Assembly: GCA_029265615.1 (NCBI GenBank)
Contig: JAJUIB010000002.1
Coordinates: 1-64,000 of the forward strand
Length of the DNA stretch: 64,000 nucleotides
Source of the DNA: Spirochaetota bacterium
Lineage (GTDB): Bacteria > Spirochaetota > Spirochaetia > Treponematales > Rectinemataceae
Reading direction: 5' to 3'
The stretch's first letter is position 1, and each line of letters starts with the position of its first letter. Positions 40,959-48,276 of the stretch are shown piece after piece. Below the pieces are notes generated by a model. That model was not told the DNA's origin and made no database searches. It saw only the letters and a program-made list of their open reading frames with translations. The position numbers and the translations under genes are program-made.

Positions 40959-43394
40959 TCACCAGTCGTCGAGGAACTGTGCGACGGAGCGCGCGATGCC
41001 GACAAGCCCGTCGGTGACGAGCCTGCATTCAGGCAGGCTTTCCACGAACAGCCGCCCATAGCGCTTCGTCGCTACCCTGCTGTCGAGGATGACGACGGCG
41101 CCGCGATCCTCCGAATGACGGATAAGACGGCCAAAGCCCTGTTTGAGGCGGATGACTGCTTCGGGCAGGCTGATTTCCATGAACGCATTGCCCCCCCGGC
41201 GTTCGCAGGCCTCGCTCCGCGCACATTGGACTGGATCGGTGGGGACGCGGAAAGGCAGTTTCGCGATCACAACAAGGGACAGCGTTTCTCCGGGCGCATC
41301 GATGCCCTCCCAAAAGGAGTCGGTTGCGAAAAGGACGCTCGAGATATCCGCTTTAAACGCTTCAAGGAGCCGTCCGCGCTCGTCCTCGCCCTGGCGCATG
41401 CAGGCGATGCCGAGCTCCGCCATCACGGGTTTTGCCCGCTCATAGGCGCCATTCAGGGCCTCATGGGAAGTGAACAGCACAAGGGCGCGGCCCCGCGAGG
41501 CGCGGATGAGCTCGACAACCGCCTCTTCGACGTAGGATTTATAGGCGGGGTGCTCAGGCGGCGGCGCTTCGGTGTCGATCGCGAGGAGGGCGTTCGTGCG
41601 GTAAGGGAAGGGCGAGGGGTAGGTCCGCGTTTCCACCGTGGCGCTCGTGCTGCGCAGCCCCACGCGGCTTTTCCAGAAATCGAAGCTCTCGCCCACGGAG
41701 AGGGTTGCCGAGGCGCAGACCACCGAACGGAATTTCGTGAAGACCGCCTCCTCCATCGTGCCGGTGATGTCGAGGGGGCTTGCTGTATAACGCACAAAGG
41801 TCTCCCCTTGCGCCGTCTGCGCCTTTTCGAGCCAAAAGACCTCCTCGGGGTGCGCGTCGAATTCCTTGAAGCGGCCGCACAACGCGGCATCTTCGCCGAG
41901 GCGCCTTCCAAGGAGGCGGGCTTCGAAGATCGTCCGCTCTTCCGCAAGCTCCTCGGGCGCCTCCTCGAGTGCGGCGGTAAGAAGTTCAGCGCAGGCAAGA
42001 AGCCGCCGTTCGAGTTCACCGATGGGCGTAAGCAAGCACTCCTCCGCATCCGGAAAGCGGGCTGCAAGGCGATACTGGCGTTCGCGGCCACAGAGGAGGA
42101 CGGCACGGCGGTCGAGTGAGTCCATCGCCTCGCGCACCCGCTTGATGGCGCCCTCAAGCTCGGCGAAGGCCTCTGCCGGAAATCCCGGTAGGGCGAGGAG
42201 TCTTGGGGCTATGCCGAAGCTTTTTTTGCCACGCTTCTGCAAAAGCCGAGAGAGGCGCCGCGTAATGCTGAAACGGGAAAGCTCCCGTGAAAAAAAACTG
42301 GTCGCGCTTGCCTCGATCGCATGCGCCTCATCGATCACCAATACCTGAAACGCGGGGAGCACAGCGGTCGCCTCATAGCCCGCACCGCCTGCGCGCGCCG
42401 CAAGGTCGGAAAACAGTATGTGGTGGTTTGCGACGACGATCTGGGCATCCGCGGCCTCCTTTCGGACGCGGAGTACAAAACAGCGTTCGCGCTCGGGACA
42501 GCGGAGTTGCAGGCAGCTTTCCGATTCGCTTGCGACACGCGACCAATCCCGCTCATCGGGCATGAAGCTGAGGTCGGCTCTATCGCCGGTCGGGCTGGTC
42601 TCCGCCCACGCGGCGATGGCCGTGAGCGGCGAGTCCTTGGTGAGGAGGAGCCCTTCCTCGTCGAGCGCTTCGCGGAGGCGGATACGACAGAGGTAGTTGC
42701 CGCGCCCTTTTACGAGTACCGCCTTGGTCTTTTTCTTAAAGAGCCGTTGAATGACGGGGATGTCTTTGTCGACGAGTTGCTTTTGGAGGTTGATCGTCGC
42801 AGTCGATACGACGACGCGCTCCTCGTTTTTTATCGCCCAGGCGAAGGCGGGGACGAGGTAGGCGAAAGATTTTCCGACACCAGTGCCTGCCTCGGCGGCG
42901 AGCACGAGTGACTCGTTGAAGGCGCGCGTGATGTCGCGGGTAAGCCGCACCTGGCTCGGCCGCGGCTCGAAGGAGGGAATGATGGTTGAGAGCTTGCCCC
43001 CCGCCTCGAGGGCACCGGCTATCTCGTCTTCGTCGAGTAGGCGGTAGGCGCGGCGCCGTGCGGGTTCCGCGATGACATAGACCGCGCTGACGGCATTGTC
43101 GACGATGTACGAGCCGACACCCATGGCGCCCGCTTCGGCGGCCACCGCGACGTCGGCCTCGCTCGGGCGAAGATGGCCCGAGGGATGGTTGTGGACGAGG
43201 ACGTCGCCTCGCTCGAAGTACGAAGCGAGGGCGGGCACCGCGCGCTCATGCCCGCGGGCGGCGACGAGGACTTCCGCGATCCTGCCCTCCGTGTCGAGGC
43301 GGCAGGCGGCAAACACCTCGTCGCCGCCAGCCTTCTCAATCTCGCGCCGGAGCTCTGCGGCCGCCCCCTCGGTGAAGCGTTCGCTGGCCTCCAC
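40959..43394 (-). CDS. JAMM/RadC-like domain fused to a DinG-type Fe-S helicase (811 aa)
   Basis: Residues 1-130 form a JAB/MPN metal domain with the zinc motif HNHPSGHLRPSEAD (68-81), as in RadC. The rest is a DinG/XPD-family superfamily 2 helicase: Walker A AEAGTGVGKS (167-176), a cluster-binding set of cysteines (one in GNYLCRIRL, then ESCLQLRCPERERC), DEAH box VIDEAHAIE and C-terminal motifs in ATDSFWEGIDAPG and QGFGRLIRH. It should unwind DNA 5' to 3', perhaps clearing R-loops or damaged forks, and the JAMM part may cleave or sense. The first codon is GTG at 43394, 9 nt after the chemoreceptor stop. The E. coli DinG has no such N-terminal domain. Confidence 0.9.
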   Translation of the reverse strand: MEASERFTEGAAAELRREIEKAGGDEVFAACRLDTEGRIAEVLVAARGHERAVPALASYFERGDVLVHNHPSGHLRPSEADVAVAAEAGAMGVGSYIVDNAVSAVYVIAEPARRRAYRLLDEDEIAGALEAGGKLSTIIPSFEPRPSQVRLTRDITRAFNESLVLAAEAGTGVGKSFAYLVPAFAWAIKNEERVVVSTATINLQKQLVDKDIPVIQRLFKKKTKAVLVKGRGNYLCRIRLREALDEEGLLLTKDSPLTAIAAWAETSPTGDRADLSFMPDERDWSRVASESESCLQLRCPERERCFVLRVRKEAADAQIVVANHHILFSDLAARAGGAGYEATAVLPAFQVLVIDEAHAIEASATSFFSRELSRFSITRRLSRLLQKRGKKSFGIAPRLLALPGFPAEAFAELEGAIKRVREAMDSLDRRAVLLCGRERQYRLAARFPDAEECLLTPIGELERRLLACAELLTAALEEAPEELAEERTIFEARLLGRRLGEDAALCGRFKEFDAHPEEVFWLEKAQTAQGETFVRYTASPLDITGTMEEAVFTKFRSVVCASATLSVGESFDFWKSRVGLRSTSATVETRTYPSPFPYRTNALLAIDTEAPPPEHPAYKSYVEEAVVELIRASRGRALVLFTSHEALNGAYERAKPVMAELGIACMRQGEDERGRLLEAFKADISSVLFATDSFWEGIDAPGETLSLVVIAKLPFRVPTDPVQCARSEACERRGGNAFMEISLPEAVIRLKQGFGRLIRHSEDRGAVVILDSRVATKRYGRLFVESLPECRLVTDGLVGIARSVAQFLDDW

Positions 43395-43403
43395 GGCGAA
43401 GGG

Positions 43404-45317
43404 CTACGAATTTCGGGCGGCAACGACGGATGTAGCTGCCGAAGCCTCGCCCTCGACTGCGCGTACGGTGAACCGCGCAAGGAGCTCTTTGAGTCGCTTC
43501 ACCGACAAAGAGTTGCGGTTGCCGGCCTCTGCGATCGCTTCCGCTGCCTTGAATATCTCCGTAATGCCGATCGTGATCTCTTCCATGCCCATCTTGGTAT
43601 CCGCAGAGATGCCGGAGACGCGATCCATCGCCTCGGTGATCGTGCCGACGCGTTCGCTCATTTCCCGCGACGAGCTCTTGACCTCTTCGGTCGTCGCGAC
43701 GAGGGAGCCCAGGGCCTCGAGGATCTGCTTTGCACCGATAGAGAGCTCCTGGGTCGCGTTTTTCATTTCCGACATGCTCGACGCAACGTCCTTGATCTGG
43801 GCGACAATGCGGCTGAAAACCTCGCCGGTGCGCGCCGTGCTCGACTCGGAGACCTTGATGTACTCGGCGACTTCGCCGAGCGAATCGGTGATCGCCCGGG
43901 CGCTTTCGGCGCTCGATTCCGCGAGGTTGCGAATCTCGTCAGCGACGACTGCGAAACCCTTGCCAAAGTCGCCTGCGTGTGCCGCCTCGATTGCGGCGTT
44001 CATCGCAAGGAGGTTGGTTTTCGAGGCAATATCCTGGATGATCTGGATCATCTCCATGATGACCGTGGCAGAATCGGCCACCTTTTTGATGACCTGTTCG
44101 GTTTCCTCCATCTCCGCCTGGCCGTCGAGCGCGGTGGTCTCAAGCTCGTTCGCGATGCGGAGTTTCTCCTCCGAGGCCTTCGCAATGTTGCCAATTGAAG
44201 CGCTCATCTCCTCAATGCTTGCGCTCGATTCGGTGATCGCCGCCGCCTGGGCCTGGATGAGCTCGGCAAGGCGCGCGATGAACTCACGGACGTCGGCTGC
44301 CGAGCGTGCGCTTGATCCCACCTCGGTGTCGAGGTGGACGATTTTGTTCTTCATGCCCTCGGTGTTGGCGCGGATCTCGTGAAGGCTCGCCGCGGTTTCC
44401 TCTGAACTCGCCGCAAGCTCCTCGGAAATCGAGCTCGCCGTTTCGGTGACGGCACGGACTTCGTCGACCATGCCCTCGAGCGAGGCGATGAAGTCGTTGA
44501 AGAATCCGGCGACCTTGCCGATCTCGTCCTGACTCCGCGCGTTCGCCCGCACGGTGAGGTCGCCCGTCGCGGCTTTTTGGAAGACGGCCACATAGCCTGC
44601 AAGGGGCTTTAAGACCATTCTGATGAGGAAGAAGAGGCCGAATCCGAGAACGATCATGACGCCCAGCGTGAAGCCGCCGACATTGAGCTGGGCGGTAAGC
44701 GCATCCTTTTCCGCGCGCTTCATCGAATGGATGATCTCGAACGCGCCATGGACTTCGCCGGCCCGCCACCCCTCTTTGGTGCCACCGACGGGATCGGGGG
44801 AGCCTTTCGGGTCGCCGTGGCAGAAGAGGCAGTCTTCCGAGAGCTTAATCGGGCGGAAATAGCGAATTTCTCCCTTTCCGCGGACGATGTATTCGGAAAG
44901 CGCTCCCGATTCAAGCTTTTTGAGCGCCTCGATCTCGACGCCCTTCGGCTCATTCACCGGGTTGCGGGGCGAAAACTTGGGCACGCGGAACTCATAGCCG
45001 TTCGCTTTCGCGTTTTTGCCCGCGACTTCGATGGCGGTGATGATCGGGACGGCCTTGAGGAGCCGGTCGCGGTCGCCATCAGCGGCGAAGGTCGAGAGAT
45101 CGGTGATGACGCCGGCGCGGAGCTTTTCTGCCATCGCGTCGCGTGTCGCCTCGGCGGTCATGACGATGCCCCGGCTTTTTTCAAGGATGCCAAAGCCCGC
45201 CATCTCGGCGATATCCGTGAGGTAGAGGCCCGCAATGATGACGGCTATGGTGAGGACGCCGAGCATCGTCACAAAGAGAATCTTGAACTTCATGCTGAAG
45301 TCGCGGATACGGCGCAT
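43404..45317 (-). CDS. Methyl-accepting chemotaxis protein with a CxxCH haem-type sensor domain
   Basis: This 637-residue chemoreceptor has membrane helices at about 11-33 and 212-233. The periplasmic part is of the Tll0287/DUF3365 type and holds DCLFCHGDP (162-170), a c-type haem motif CxxCH, so it may sense redox state or a gas. A HAMP domain follows ([14 protein letters not shown]), then the signalling domain with the tip [23 protein letters not shown] at 45317 is preceded by AAGGAG. It shares a message with the helicase gene. Haem attachment would need a cytochrome c maturation system, not seen here. Confidence 0.92.
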
Positions 45318-45346
45318 TGGAGCTCCTTGGCGCGAAATACGGTGAT

Positions 45347-45375
45347 AGTATAAGGTGAGGCGCCTGTAAGGGCAA
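45347..45375 (-). promoter_or_regulatory. Promoter of the chemoreceptor/helicase operon
   Basis: TTGCCC, 17 nt, TATACT on the minus strand, giving a leader of about 25 nt with the AAGGAG site. In the remaining gap to 45537 I see no other gene. Confidence 0.7.
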
Positions 45376-45537
45376 GGAATCAATCCCGATGCTCCGCCTT
45401 GCGCTCCAATTTGCGTATAGCGCGGCTTCTCATGCACCGATACAAGAGGGAAGGCCCGCGAGCACGCGCGGAAGCCCTATGGTGCGCCATATGCAGAGCA
45501 GAAAGGCACATGCAGAAAGGATAGGGGCGGAGAACCC

Positions 45538-48276
45538 ATGACCGTCGGCCAAAAAGCGAGCCTCAGCCTCCTCATCGCCGTGCTCGTGTTCGCGGCCTTT
45601 TCGGTGGCGGCGTTTTCTGGCCTTTTTGATGTGGTCGAGGCGCGTTTCTATAATCCCTCCATTACAGCAAATTACGCGAAGAATCTTGACGCGATCGCCG
45701 AGGCTGCCGACCTCTACCACGCGCTCAATCTTGAACGATTTGCGGCGGTTCTCGGCAAGGATGCGGTCAAACGCAGTTTCCTCCCGAACATAAGCCAGGA
45801 AGACGCTTTTGAGCGGATGAACGCCTTTGGGAAGCTCCAAGAGGAAACGCCTGGGCTGACGGGTCTCCGCCTCCTCGACCTAGACGGCAAGCGCATCCAC
45901 TACAGCACAATTCCAGGCGACATTCGCAAGCAGAGTCAGTTCGAGATACTCTATAGAAACTACGGAGAGCCGGGCGACCCTCCGTATGCGCTTTTTGCTG
46001 CGGCCGATAAAAGCCCCGGTGCGGTGCGCATCGAGCCTGAGACGGGGCGCTTCATCTATTCCCTGCCATTTTACGATAGCTATGGCATTTACCGCGGCAC
46101 TGCCGCCTTCCATGTGGCGCAGAGCGGCCTGGTCGCGCAACTCCTTAAGGCCGGACTTCTCAATGTGGGAGATGATCTTGTCGCGGCGGGTGAGCGTGGG
46201 CTTGTGTGCAAGGTGCCGGCCCCGGGCCGTGCGGCGCTCGCCGAGCACATAGCAGAGCTGTGGGCGGGGGGGCTTCCTCCTGGCCCCCTGCCGCTCACGG
46301 GCGGCGAGGGGGTTGACCCCCTCGTCCTCTTTTCCCGTCACACCGCGCGCGCAGGCTATGTTGGGTTGCTTGCGCCCGCCTCCGCCTTCACCTTCCCGCC
46401 GTCAATGAAGTGGTTGCTTCTCGGCTCCTTTTTTGTCACCGCTTATCTCCTTGCCTTTCTCCTCCTCAACCTGCGCCAGGATCGCATGGCGGTGCTTTCG
46501 CACCGCATCAAGCGTTTTCAGATATCCCTCCTCGAGGAGTATCTTGATAACAAGACGGATATCGATTTCGAGCGCTGGAGCCGCGAGCTTGAATCGCGGC
46601 GTGGCGAGGTGCGGGGGGAGATCAAACGCAGCATCGGCCGGGTGAAAAAGAGCCGTGAAGGCGAAATCGATGAGCTTATCGACAAGAGCTGGGATGAAGT
46701 TCTCGCCGTTTTAGGCCGCCGCGCTGGCCTGCAAGGACTTTCTGCCGCTTCTGGTGCCGCTGCGATCAGTGTCAAAGAGGTCGAACGGCTTATTGCGGAA
46801 GCGCTCAAGGGGGGGACTTTTATCCTTCCCTCGACGGTATCGGGCCTGCCTTCCCGTGAACCGCCCAAGGCGGCAAAAGCCGAAGCGGTCGAGGAGGCCG
46901 AGGCGGTCGAAGAGGCCGAAGCGGTCGAAGAGGCCGAAGCGGTCGAGGAGGCCGAGGCGGTCGAGGAGGCCGAGGCGGTCGAGGAGGCCGAGGCGGTTGA
47001 GGAGGCCGAAGCGGTCGAGGAGGCCGAGGCGGTCGAAGAGGCCGAGGCGGTTGAGGAGGCCGAAGCGGTCGAGGAGGCCGAGGCGGTCGAGGAGGCCGAA
47101 GCGGTCGAGGAGGCCGAGGCGGTCGAAGAGGCCGAGGCGGTTGAGGAGGCCGAAGCGGTCGAGGAGGCCGAGGCGGTCGAAGAGGCCGAAGCGGTCGAGG
47201 AGGCCGAGGCGGTCGAAGAGGCCGAGGCAGTCGAAGAGGCCGAAGCGGTTGAGGAAAAGGTGGCTTTTGGCGACCTTCGCCGCGCCGCTGCGCGAGCCCT
47301 TGAGCTTGCCCGCGATGAGTCAGAGGATATTCCCCTCATCCCCGAGTCAAGCGGCCTTGAACTCGCCGACGAGGCCGATATTTCCGACATTATCGGTTTT
47401 ATCGAGGTCGATGAGTCCTTGGCGGCTACGGATGTAGCTGCAGGCGGAACTGGGCCTGCCCTGCTCCGCTCTCCCGCCTCAGCCGAGGCGCGCAGGCTTG
47501 CCGCGCTCGAGGAAGAACTTGAGGAGCTACCCGAGCTTGCGGCGGCCGAGGAGGCGGAACTCGTCGGTCGGCGAGAGGGCGAGGAGCGGAGGGATGACGA
47601 CGCCATCGCGGCGGCGATCGAAGCTACTCCACTTCCCGATTCTGGCATGAGCGCCTATGAGGAGATAGAGTTCGATCTCCTTTTAGGGTCGCTTGATCTT
47701 TCCTCGCTCGAACAGTGGGATTCGGGCCCTGCGGGCGCGGAAGAAATGGACGCGACCCGCTCGGATTATCGGCCCATCAACGCCGAATCTCCGTACGAAG
47801 CGCCCTCGCCCTCCGGGCCTCCGCCAGAGCCGAAAGCCGAGTCGGAAGAGGGCGGGGAGCCAGGGGCGCGGACCGACGATCTTGCCTCCGAGCTTGAGGA
47901 GCTTGAAGCCCTTGAGGCCGATGCCTCGCCGCATGAGCTTGAGGGGGTGGAGCCGGCGTTCTGGCATTGTGCACCGCCTGCGGCCCCGCTTGCGAGCCTC
48001 CTCGACGCGCCCCTTGCAGGCGAATTGCCGCTTGCGGAGGGAGAAGCGGAAGGCGATGGTGCGGAGCTTCTTGAGCTTGAAGCCGCCGATCTACAGGATG
48101 AGCGCGAAGATGGCGATGATGAGACGGAACCTCCTCAAGGAGGCCCTATCGTTTACCGCGACGGCGTCTACCTCCTTGAAGGCGCCCGCCGCGGTTCGTC
48201 CCGGGAACTTGATGCCGAATTCCGGGAGCTTGTCGATTCCGTGCTCGGCGGCGATGCCGGCGCACGGCGCTATTGA
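45538..48276 (+). CDS. Membrane-anchored acidic protein with 21 AEAVEE repeats (912 aa)
   Basis: Layout: membrane helix 8-28, an extracytoplasmic sensor-like domain (30-285), a second helix (288-310), a cytoplasmic charged helical region (315-440), 21 six-residue repeats of AEAVEE (448-573), then a long Glu/Asp/Ala-rich tail ending in a short ordered segment ([21 protein letters not shown]). GGCGGAG precedes the ATG. The outer domain with a cytoplasmic tail recalls a Cache-like receptor without kinase or MCP output. I do not recognise a family. It begins a run of envelope-related genes. Confidence 0.75.
46879..47256 (+). repeat. 18-nt tandem repeat, 21 in-frame copies
   Basis: Exactly 378 nt = 21 units of GCC-GA(A/G)-GC(G/A)-GT(C/T)-GA(A/G)-GA(G/A), each coding AEAVEE. 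Only synonymous third-base changes occur between copies, so the protein repeat is perfect while the DNA is not. The unit length keeps frame under slippage. Confidence 0.95.

Follow-up and report, generated by a model that had tools for sequence, protein, structure and literature searches.

The RadC protein is widespread in bacteria and has, to our knowledge, no agreed biochemical activity. Fusions of RadC to DinG were noted by the Aravind group, who guessed at a nuclease (PMC5512222), an idea put forward again for RadC-clade JAB domains (PMC3482391), and they have since been named as a subgroup, "RadC-like DinG" (Cheng 2025; PMC11981726). The latter study presents an AlphaFold3 model, takes a protein from Desulfuromonas soudanensis as its model protein, and reports that the subgroup is highly conserved, carries a Glu/His/His/Asp set, occurs in hosts lacking HolC and has a RadC-like domain that DALI likens to metalloproteases and not to nucleases. 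Here we describe a member of this subgroup encoded by a stretch of 64,000 nucleotides from a Spirochaetota bacterium (contig JAJUIB010000002.1; hereafter the window), with the following features.

40959..43394, minus strand: the RadC-like JAMM / YoaA-type DinG helicase fusion, 811 amino acids, GTG start (AlphaFold2 model)
43050..43394, minus strand: RadC-like JAMM domain, residues ~1-115, with E26, H68, H70, S78 and D81 (Pfam, conservation, Foldseek, HHalign)
43317..43319, minus strand: codon of the catalytic glutamate E26 (kept in 119/120 copies; aligns with the RadC glutamate)
43152..43193, minus strand: HNHPSGHLRPSEAD, the zinc/catalytic motif, residues 68-81, with H68, H70, S78 and D81 (sequence; kept in 119/120 copies)
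Residues ~116-127: short linker between the JAMM domain and the helicase
40959..43013, minus strand: YoaA/DinG-type superfamily 2 iron-sulfur (Fe-S) helicase, residues ~128-811, with C236, C294, C299 and C305 (profile and structure matches, alignment)

The window protein shares with RadC-like DinG the order of its domains, the glutamate, two histidines and aspartate, a YoaA-like Fe-S helicase and the absence of HolC, and we saw no important difference between the two. The architecture is already named and not new; the spirochaete member is new, and the analysis adds to earlier work the motif serine, the conservation of five residues, repeated losses of the JAMM domain and a decayed copy. A first-pass annotation of this DNA had proposed a RadC-like JAMM domain joined to a complete Fe-S DinG-type helicase, with which the profile matches, the model and the motifs all agree, and the search across genomes that it suggested recovered the fusion in at least five phyla. 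Its reservation that the architecture might already be characterized was half borne out: the fusion has been named and modelled (PMC11981726) and was noted earlier (PMC5512222), but it has not been characterized biochemically. Homologues share this start residue, encoded by ATG or GTG, and we therefore consider the GTG start correct; no clear ribosome-binding site was found 5′ of it. AlphaFold2 modelled the whole chain with a mean predicted local distance difference test (pLDDT) score of 89.7 and a predicted template-modelling score of 0.80, and the JAMM domain alone with a mean pLDDT of 90.3.

Several lines of evidence place the N-terminus in the RadC clade. Pfam RadC (PF04002) matched at 25.0 bits over the whole protein and 30.4 bits over the N-terminus (cut-off 22.1), far below the 130 bits scored by the true RadC of the same genome; the Pfam Prok-JAB match was sub-threshold, and the NCBIfam RadC whole-protein models PRK00024 and TIGR00608 gave 20.9 and 16.5 bits, short of their cut-offs of 180 and 133.85. 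By these profile scores the domain is a relative of RadC and not a RadC protein. The motif residues H68, H70, S78 and D81 have exactly the spacing H-x-H-x7-S-x2-D and, with E26 in the general-base position as the fifth residue of the catalytic set, satisfy the JAMM/MPN+ pattern E-xn-H-[STN]-H-x7-S-x2-D in a JAMM fold; the first-pass annotation had named the four motif residues correctly and missed the glutamate. An HHalign comparison with a RadC profile built from related genomes and E. coli gave 98% probability (E 5e-14), pairing E26 with the RadC glutamate and aligning the HNHPSG...S..D blocks. With the isolated domain as query, Foldseek returned RadC of Chlorobium tepidum (2qlc) as the best match in the PDB, followed by BubCD, COP9 CSN5, AfJAMM, Rpn11, AMSH and a bacterial ubiquitin-like protein (Ubl)-deubiquitinase complex. 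Because the ligands are invariant across phyla, the model has the RadC/JAMM fold and HHalign reached 98%, the RadC-like domain is confirmed as real and not a chance resemblance. Compared with RadC (YicR; PDB 2qlc), which belongs to the same JAB clade by Pfam, HHalign and best PDB fold match, the fusion has a loop 8 residues shorter before the HNHP motif, where RadC carries an HPRE segment, lacks the helix-hairpin-helix domain and is joined to a helicase.

The helicase motifs are complete (Walker A, DEAH and the four Fe-S cysteines, the latter kept in 38 of 38 aligned relatives), and Pfam Helicase_C_2 matched at E=6e-46. The NCBIfam YoaA model (NF053712) scored 559 bits against an equivalog cut-off of 680 and the E. 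coli-type DinG model 400 bits, also under its cut-off, which by profile score makes this part YoaA-like but not YoaA, and nearer to YoaA than to E. coli-type DinG. Among solved structures, the DinG proteins of E. coli and S. aureus are nearest. YoaA, E. coli DinG and ExoDinG (S. aureus DinG, 8zef) belong to the same helicase family as the fusion and have the same Fe-S cysteines. Unlike the fusion, YoaA and E. coli DinG begin directly with the helicase, as had been noted for the latter in the first-pass annotation, whereas ExoDinG also has an enzyme at its N-terminus, but a DnaQ exonuclease. HolC, the known partner of YoaA, had no match in the window's own genome and one weak partial match among 59 relatives.

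All five residues of the catalytic set (E26, H68, H70, S78 and D81) were invariant in 32 JAMM-bearing sequences gathered without a motif filter, the window's own included. A scan of named genomes with the pattern [LI][IV]HNHP[SN]GxL yielded 80 best loci from Spirochaetota, Desulfuromonadales/Geobacteraceae, Halanaerobiales, Fusobacteriaceae and Gemmatimonadota; conservation of H68-L75 in these loci is in part a selection effect of the pattern, but E26, S78 and D81 lie outside it and were likewise invariant. In 78 of the 80, JAMM domain and helicase share one reading frame, and the remaining 2 are interrupted by a contig end. Altogether, the complete set was found in 119 of 120 JAMM-bearing copies (113 distinct N-termini, divergent spirochaete copies included) from at least five phyla, so that the ligand conservation on which the first-pass annotation had staked its proposal held up. 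The single exception (L215; G236:C3:210500-215000, in a Treponematales-like genome) has lost E26, the first histidine and a loop while its helicase is intact. Presence of the full set in all but one visibly decayed copy indicates that catalysis is probably what is kept. The decayed copy is a natural dead mutant, and its sister, from Treponema zioleckii, has a complete JAMM domain.

The helicase is more widely retained than the JAMM domain. It was present in 56 of 59 relatives, most of these with the JAMM domain, and in 180 of 198 genomes sampled from the phylum; ∼91 of the 198 had the JAMM clade (matches of at least 51 bits, lying in long frames consistent with the fusion or in frames interrupted by contig ends). 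Most of the weaker JAMM matches (∼20-40 bits) fell in frames the size of RadC; the window's genome and most relatives encode a true RadC in a gene of its own. No copy of this JAMM clade was found in Spirochaetota other than as part of a fusion. In a helicase-only tree of 101 rows, all nine changes of the JAMM label were forced by well supported branches, and within Treponematales JAMM-less helicases branched from among JAMM-bearing ones in at least five places (L027+L031, L026, L028, L029+L030+L213 and L212, besides the decayed L215). This was a quick tree under one substitution model that leaves the deep order, the root and hence a single fusion event unsettled, but the close sister pairs L212/L086, L026/L062 and L028/L083 are independent of its deep branches. 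On this tree, the JAMM domain was deleted at least five times in Treponematales and decayed once, with the helicase retained. The DNA upstream of the JAMM-less helicases held no convincing JAMM remnant, and at most a retained linker. Split genes were rejected as an explanation, as no separate JAMM gene was found in these relatives and RadC itself is a different gene; replacement of the lost domain by SprT-like proteases was also rejected, since matches were weak and showed no pattern. Because the helicase survives deletion of the JAMM domain, the latter is a separable accessory, with its catalytic set intact while it is present and the whole domain lost when unneeded. L212/L086 is a natural deletion pair of close relatives, the JAMM-bearing member being Treponema bryantii.

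What would such an accessory do? The first-pass annotation hinted at a metal-dependent activity with a nucleic acid or a protein as substrate, a sensible idea that lacks specificity. We favor the possibility, with a probability of roughly 0.4, that the fusion is a helicase and protease in one chain, acting on proteins stuck on DNA, because it combines a peptidase-type active site with an XPD-family translocase on single-stranded DNA and because human FANCJ and SPRTN offer a precedent (PMC12279946, PMC10175854). On running into a crosslinked protein, the translocating FANCJ unfolds it and so opens it to cleavage by SPRTN (PMC12279946), and the fusion would be a one-chain counterpart of this pair. 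The likeness is one of hypothetical mode of action, in which a zinc metalloprotease receives its substrate from an Fe-S helicase of the XPD family: FANCJ is of the same helicase family, but the human system comprises two proteins, SPRTN is of SprT type and not JAMM, and no homology between the proteases is claimed. In this scheme, the 5′-3′ Fe-S helicase would engage single-stranded DNA where forks have stalled, at flaps or at apurinic/apyrimidinic (AP) site lesions, translocate into a tightly bound or crosslinked protein, unfold it and feed the chain into the JAMM site. Zinc held there by H68, H70 and D81 would bind a water molecule for activation by E26, S78 would stabilize the tetrahedral intermediate, and the outcome would be cleavage of a peptide or isopeptide bond. 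In this scheme zinc binding, proteolysis and the choice of a DNA-bound protein as substrate are inferred, whereas the fusion, its complete catalytic set, the helicase motifs, the fold, the conservation and the repeated losses come from the computational results. Amide hydrolysis is favored because the active site has the residues of a thermolysin-like zinc peptidase, and asparagine is permitted between the two histidines (PMC300881). The order of the Foldseek matches, RadC and then JAMM isopeptidases, supports a protease, as does the permanent fusion to a single-stranded DNA translocase, no JAMM copy having been found by itself in Spirochaetota.

An endonuclease IV-like gene is the usual neighbor among the Halanaerobiales loci examined; in L084, L106, L107, L111 and L116 the fusion gene lies directly downstream of it, with a gap of 6 bases in L106. 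AP sites are one source of DNA-protein crosslinks, and for this reason the neighbor counts in favor of a role at crosslinks. More tentatively, and with doubt predominating, RadC-like DinG could be a bacterial protease dedicated to DNA-protein crosslinks and equipped with an unfolding motor of its own, an analogue of FANCJ-SPRTN in a single chain.

Several points weigh against a helicase-protease. The endonuclease IV-like neighbor occurs in a single clade only, several Treponematales lineages do without the JAMM domain, and most known JAMM enzymes act specifically on ubiquitin-like tails and not as general proteases. In addition, RadC-clade JAB domains have no tunnel to accommodate a ubiquitin-like tail, which is why a nuclease was proposed for them (PMC3482391, PMC5512222), and the study that named RadC-like DinG states that there has been no research on it so far, with no assay of any member (PMC11981726).

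The published nuclease idea (PMC5512222, PMC3482391) is the first alternative to consider. Here the JAMM domain would process nucleic acid, cutting the strand exposed by the helicase from a position like that of DnaQ in Gram-positive ExoDinG and equivalent to that of the nuclease domains of both ExoDinG and EndoDinG (PMC11981726). We consider this unlikely: a single zinc on His/His/Asp, with Glu and Ser alongside, is the chemistry of a peptidase, the top 50 Foldseek matches comprised RadC and peptidases with zero nucleases, the DALI search of Cheng likewise returned none (PMC11981726), and we found no JAMM-fold enzyme with nuclease activity reported in the literature searched. It is less probable still that the domain removes a small protein modifier or else trims a single partner (a protein of the replisome or of repair, for example) at its C-terminus, rather than degrading bound proteins. 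The biochemically characterized JAB domains are indeed peptidases of ubiquitin-like proteins (PMC5512222), and bacterial Ubl-JAB systems exist, BubCD and the bacterial deubiquitinase complex being among the Foldseek matches, but the RadC clade is missing the Ubl-tail tunnel (PMC5512222) and no Ubl or ligase gene was a constant neighbor in the loci examined. The least probable alternative is that the domain chiefly binds protein or DNA and thereby recruits or regulates the helicase, taking the place of HolC as its partner, since, although HolC is absent from these genomes apart from the one weak match, as Cheng reports too, and the domain is dispensable in several lineages, a binding module would not need E26, both histidines, the serine and the aspartate in 119 of 120 copies over several phyla.

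Because it places an active site of the RadC clade on a helicase whose behavior is known, the fusion suggests that the substrate is probably near single-stranded DNA, and close relatives in which the JAMM domain is deleted or dead provide natural controls. If the domain is a protease, then bacteria own a one-protein machine that clears proteins stuck on DNA, and a dedicated crosslink protease would be the first peptidase function of the RadC/JAMM clade on DNA-bound proteins; if it is a nuclease, this would be new chemistry for the JAMM fold.

The genomic surroundings of the fusion vary. It adjoins a chemotaxis receptor and a mannose-6-phosphate isomerase gene in the window, genes for a RelA/SpoT-TPR protein and an acyltransferase in Treponema, an aminotransferase gene in Desulfuromonadales and, besides the endonuclease IV-like gene, a cell wall hydrolase gene in Halanaerobiales; no constant partner was found across the lineages examined, and most neighbors are housekeeping genes. 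Neither a mobile-element signature nor a defense cassette was found around the loci, and a role in defense or in mobile elements was rejected given these lineage-variable neighbors. None of the phage matches listed covers the JAMM part, plasmids gave no match to the domain, and matches on viral contigs were short, weak and JAB/RadC-like, none of those examined having the fusion. In PADLOC, only type IV DinG helicase models responded, over the helicase alone. The fusion is a chromosomal gene.

Two further observations concern the adjacent DNA. The upstream chemotaxis-receptor gene (43404-45437) is in frame with the fusion gene, and only one TAG stop and three codons separate them (43394-43406, minus strand). 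Beyond it, an open reading frame at 45538-48276 encodes a 912-residue protein with no Pfam match, within which ∼21 copies of the 18-bp unit GCCGAGGCGGTCGAGGAG (46879-47255, plus strand) encode an EAVEEA repeat.
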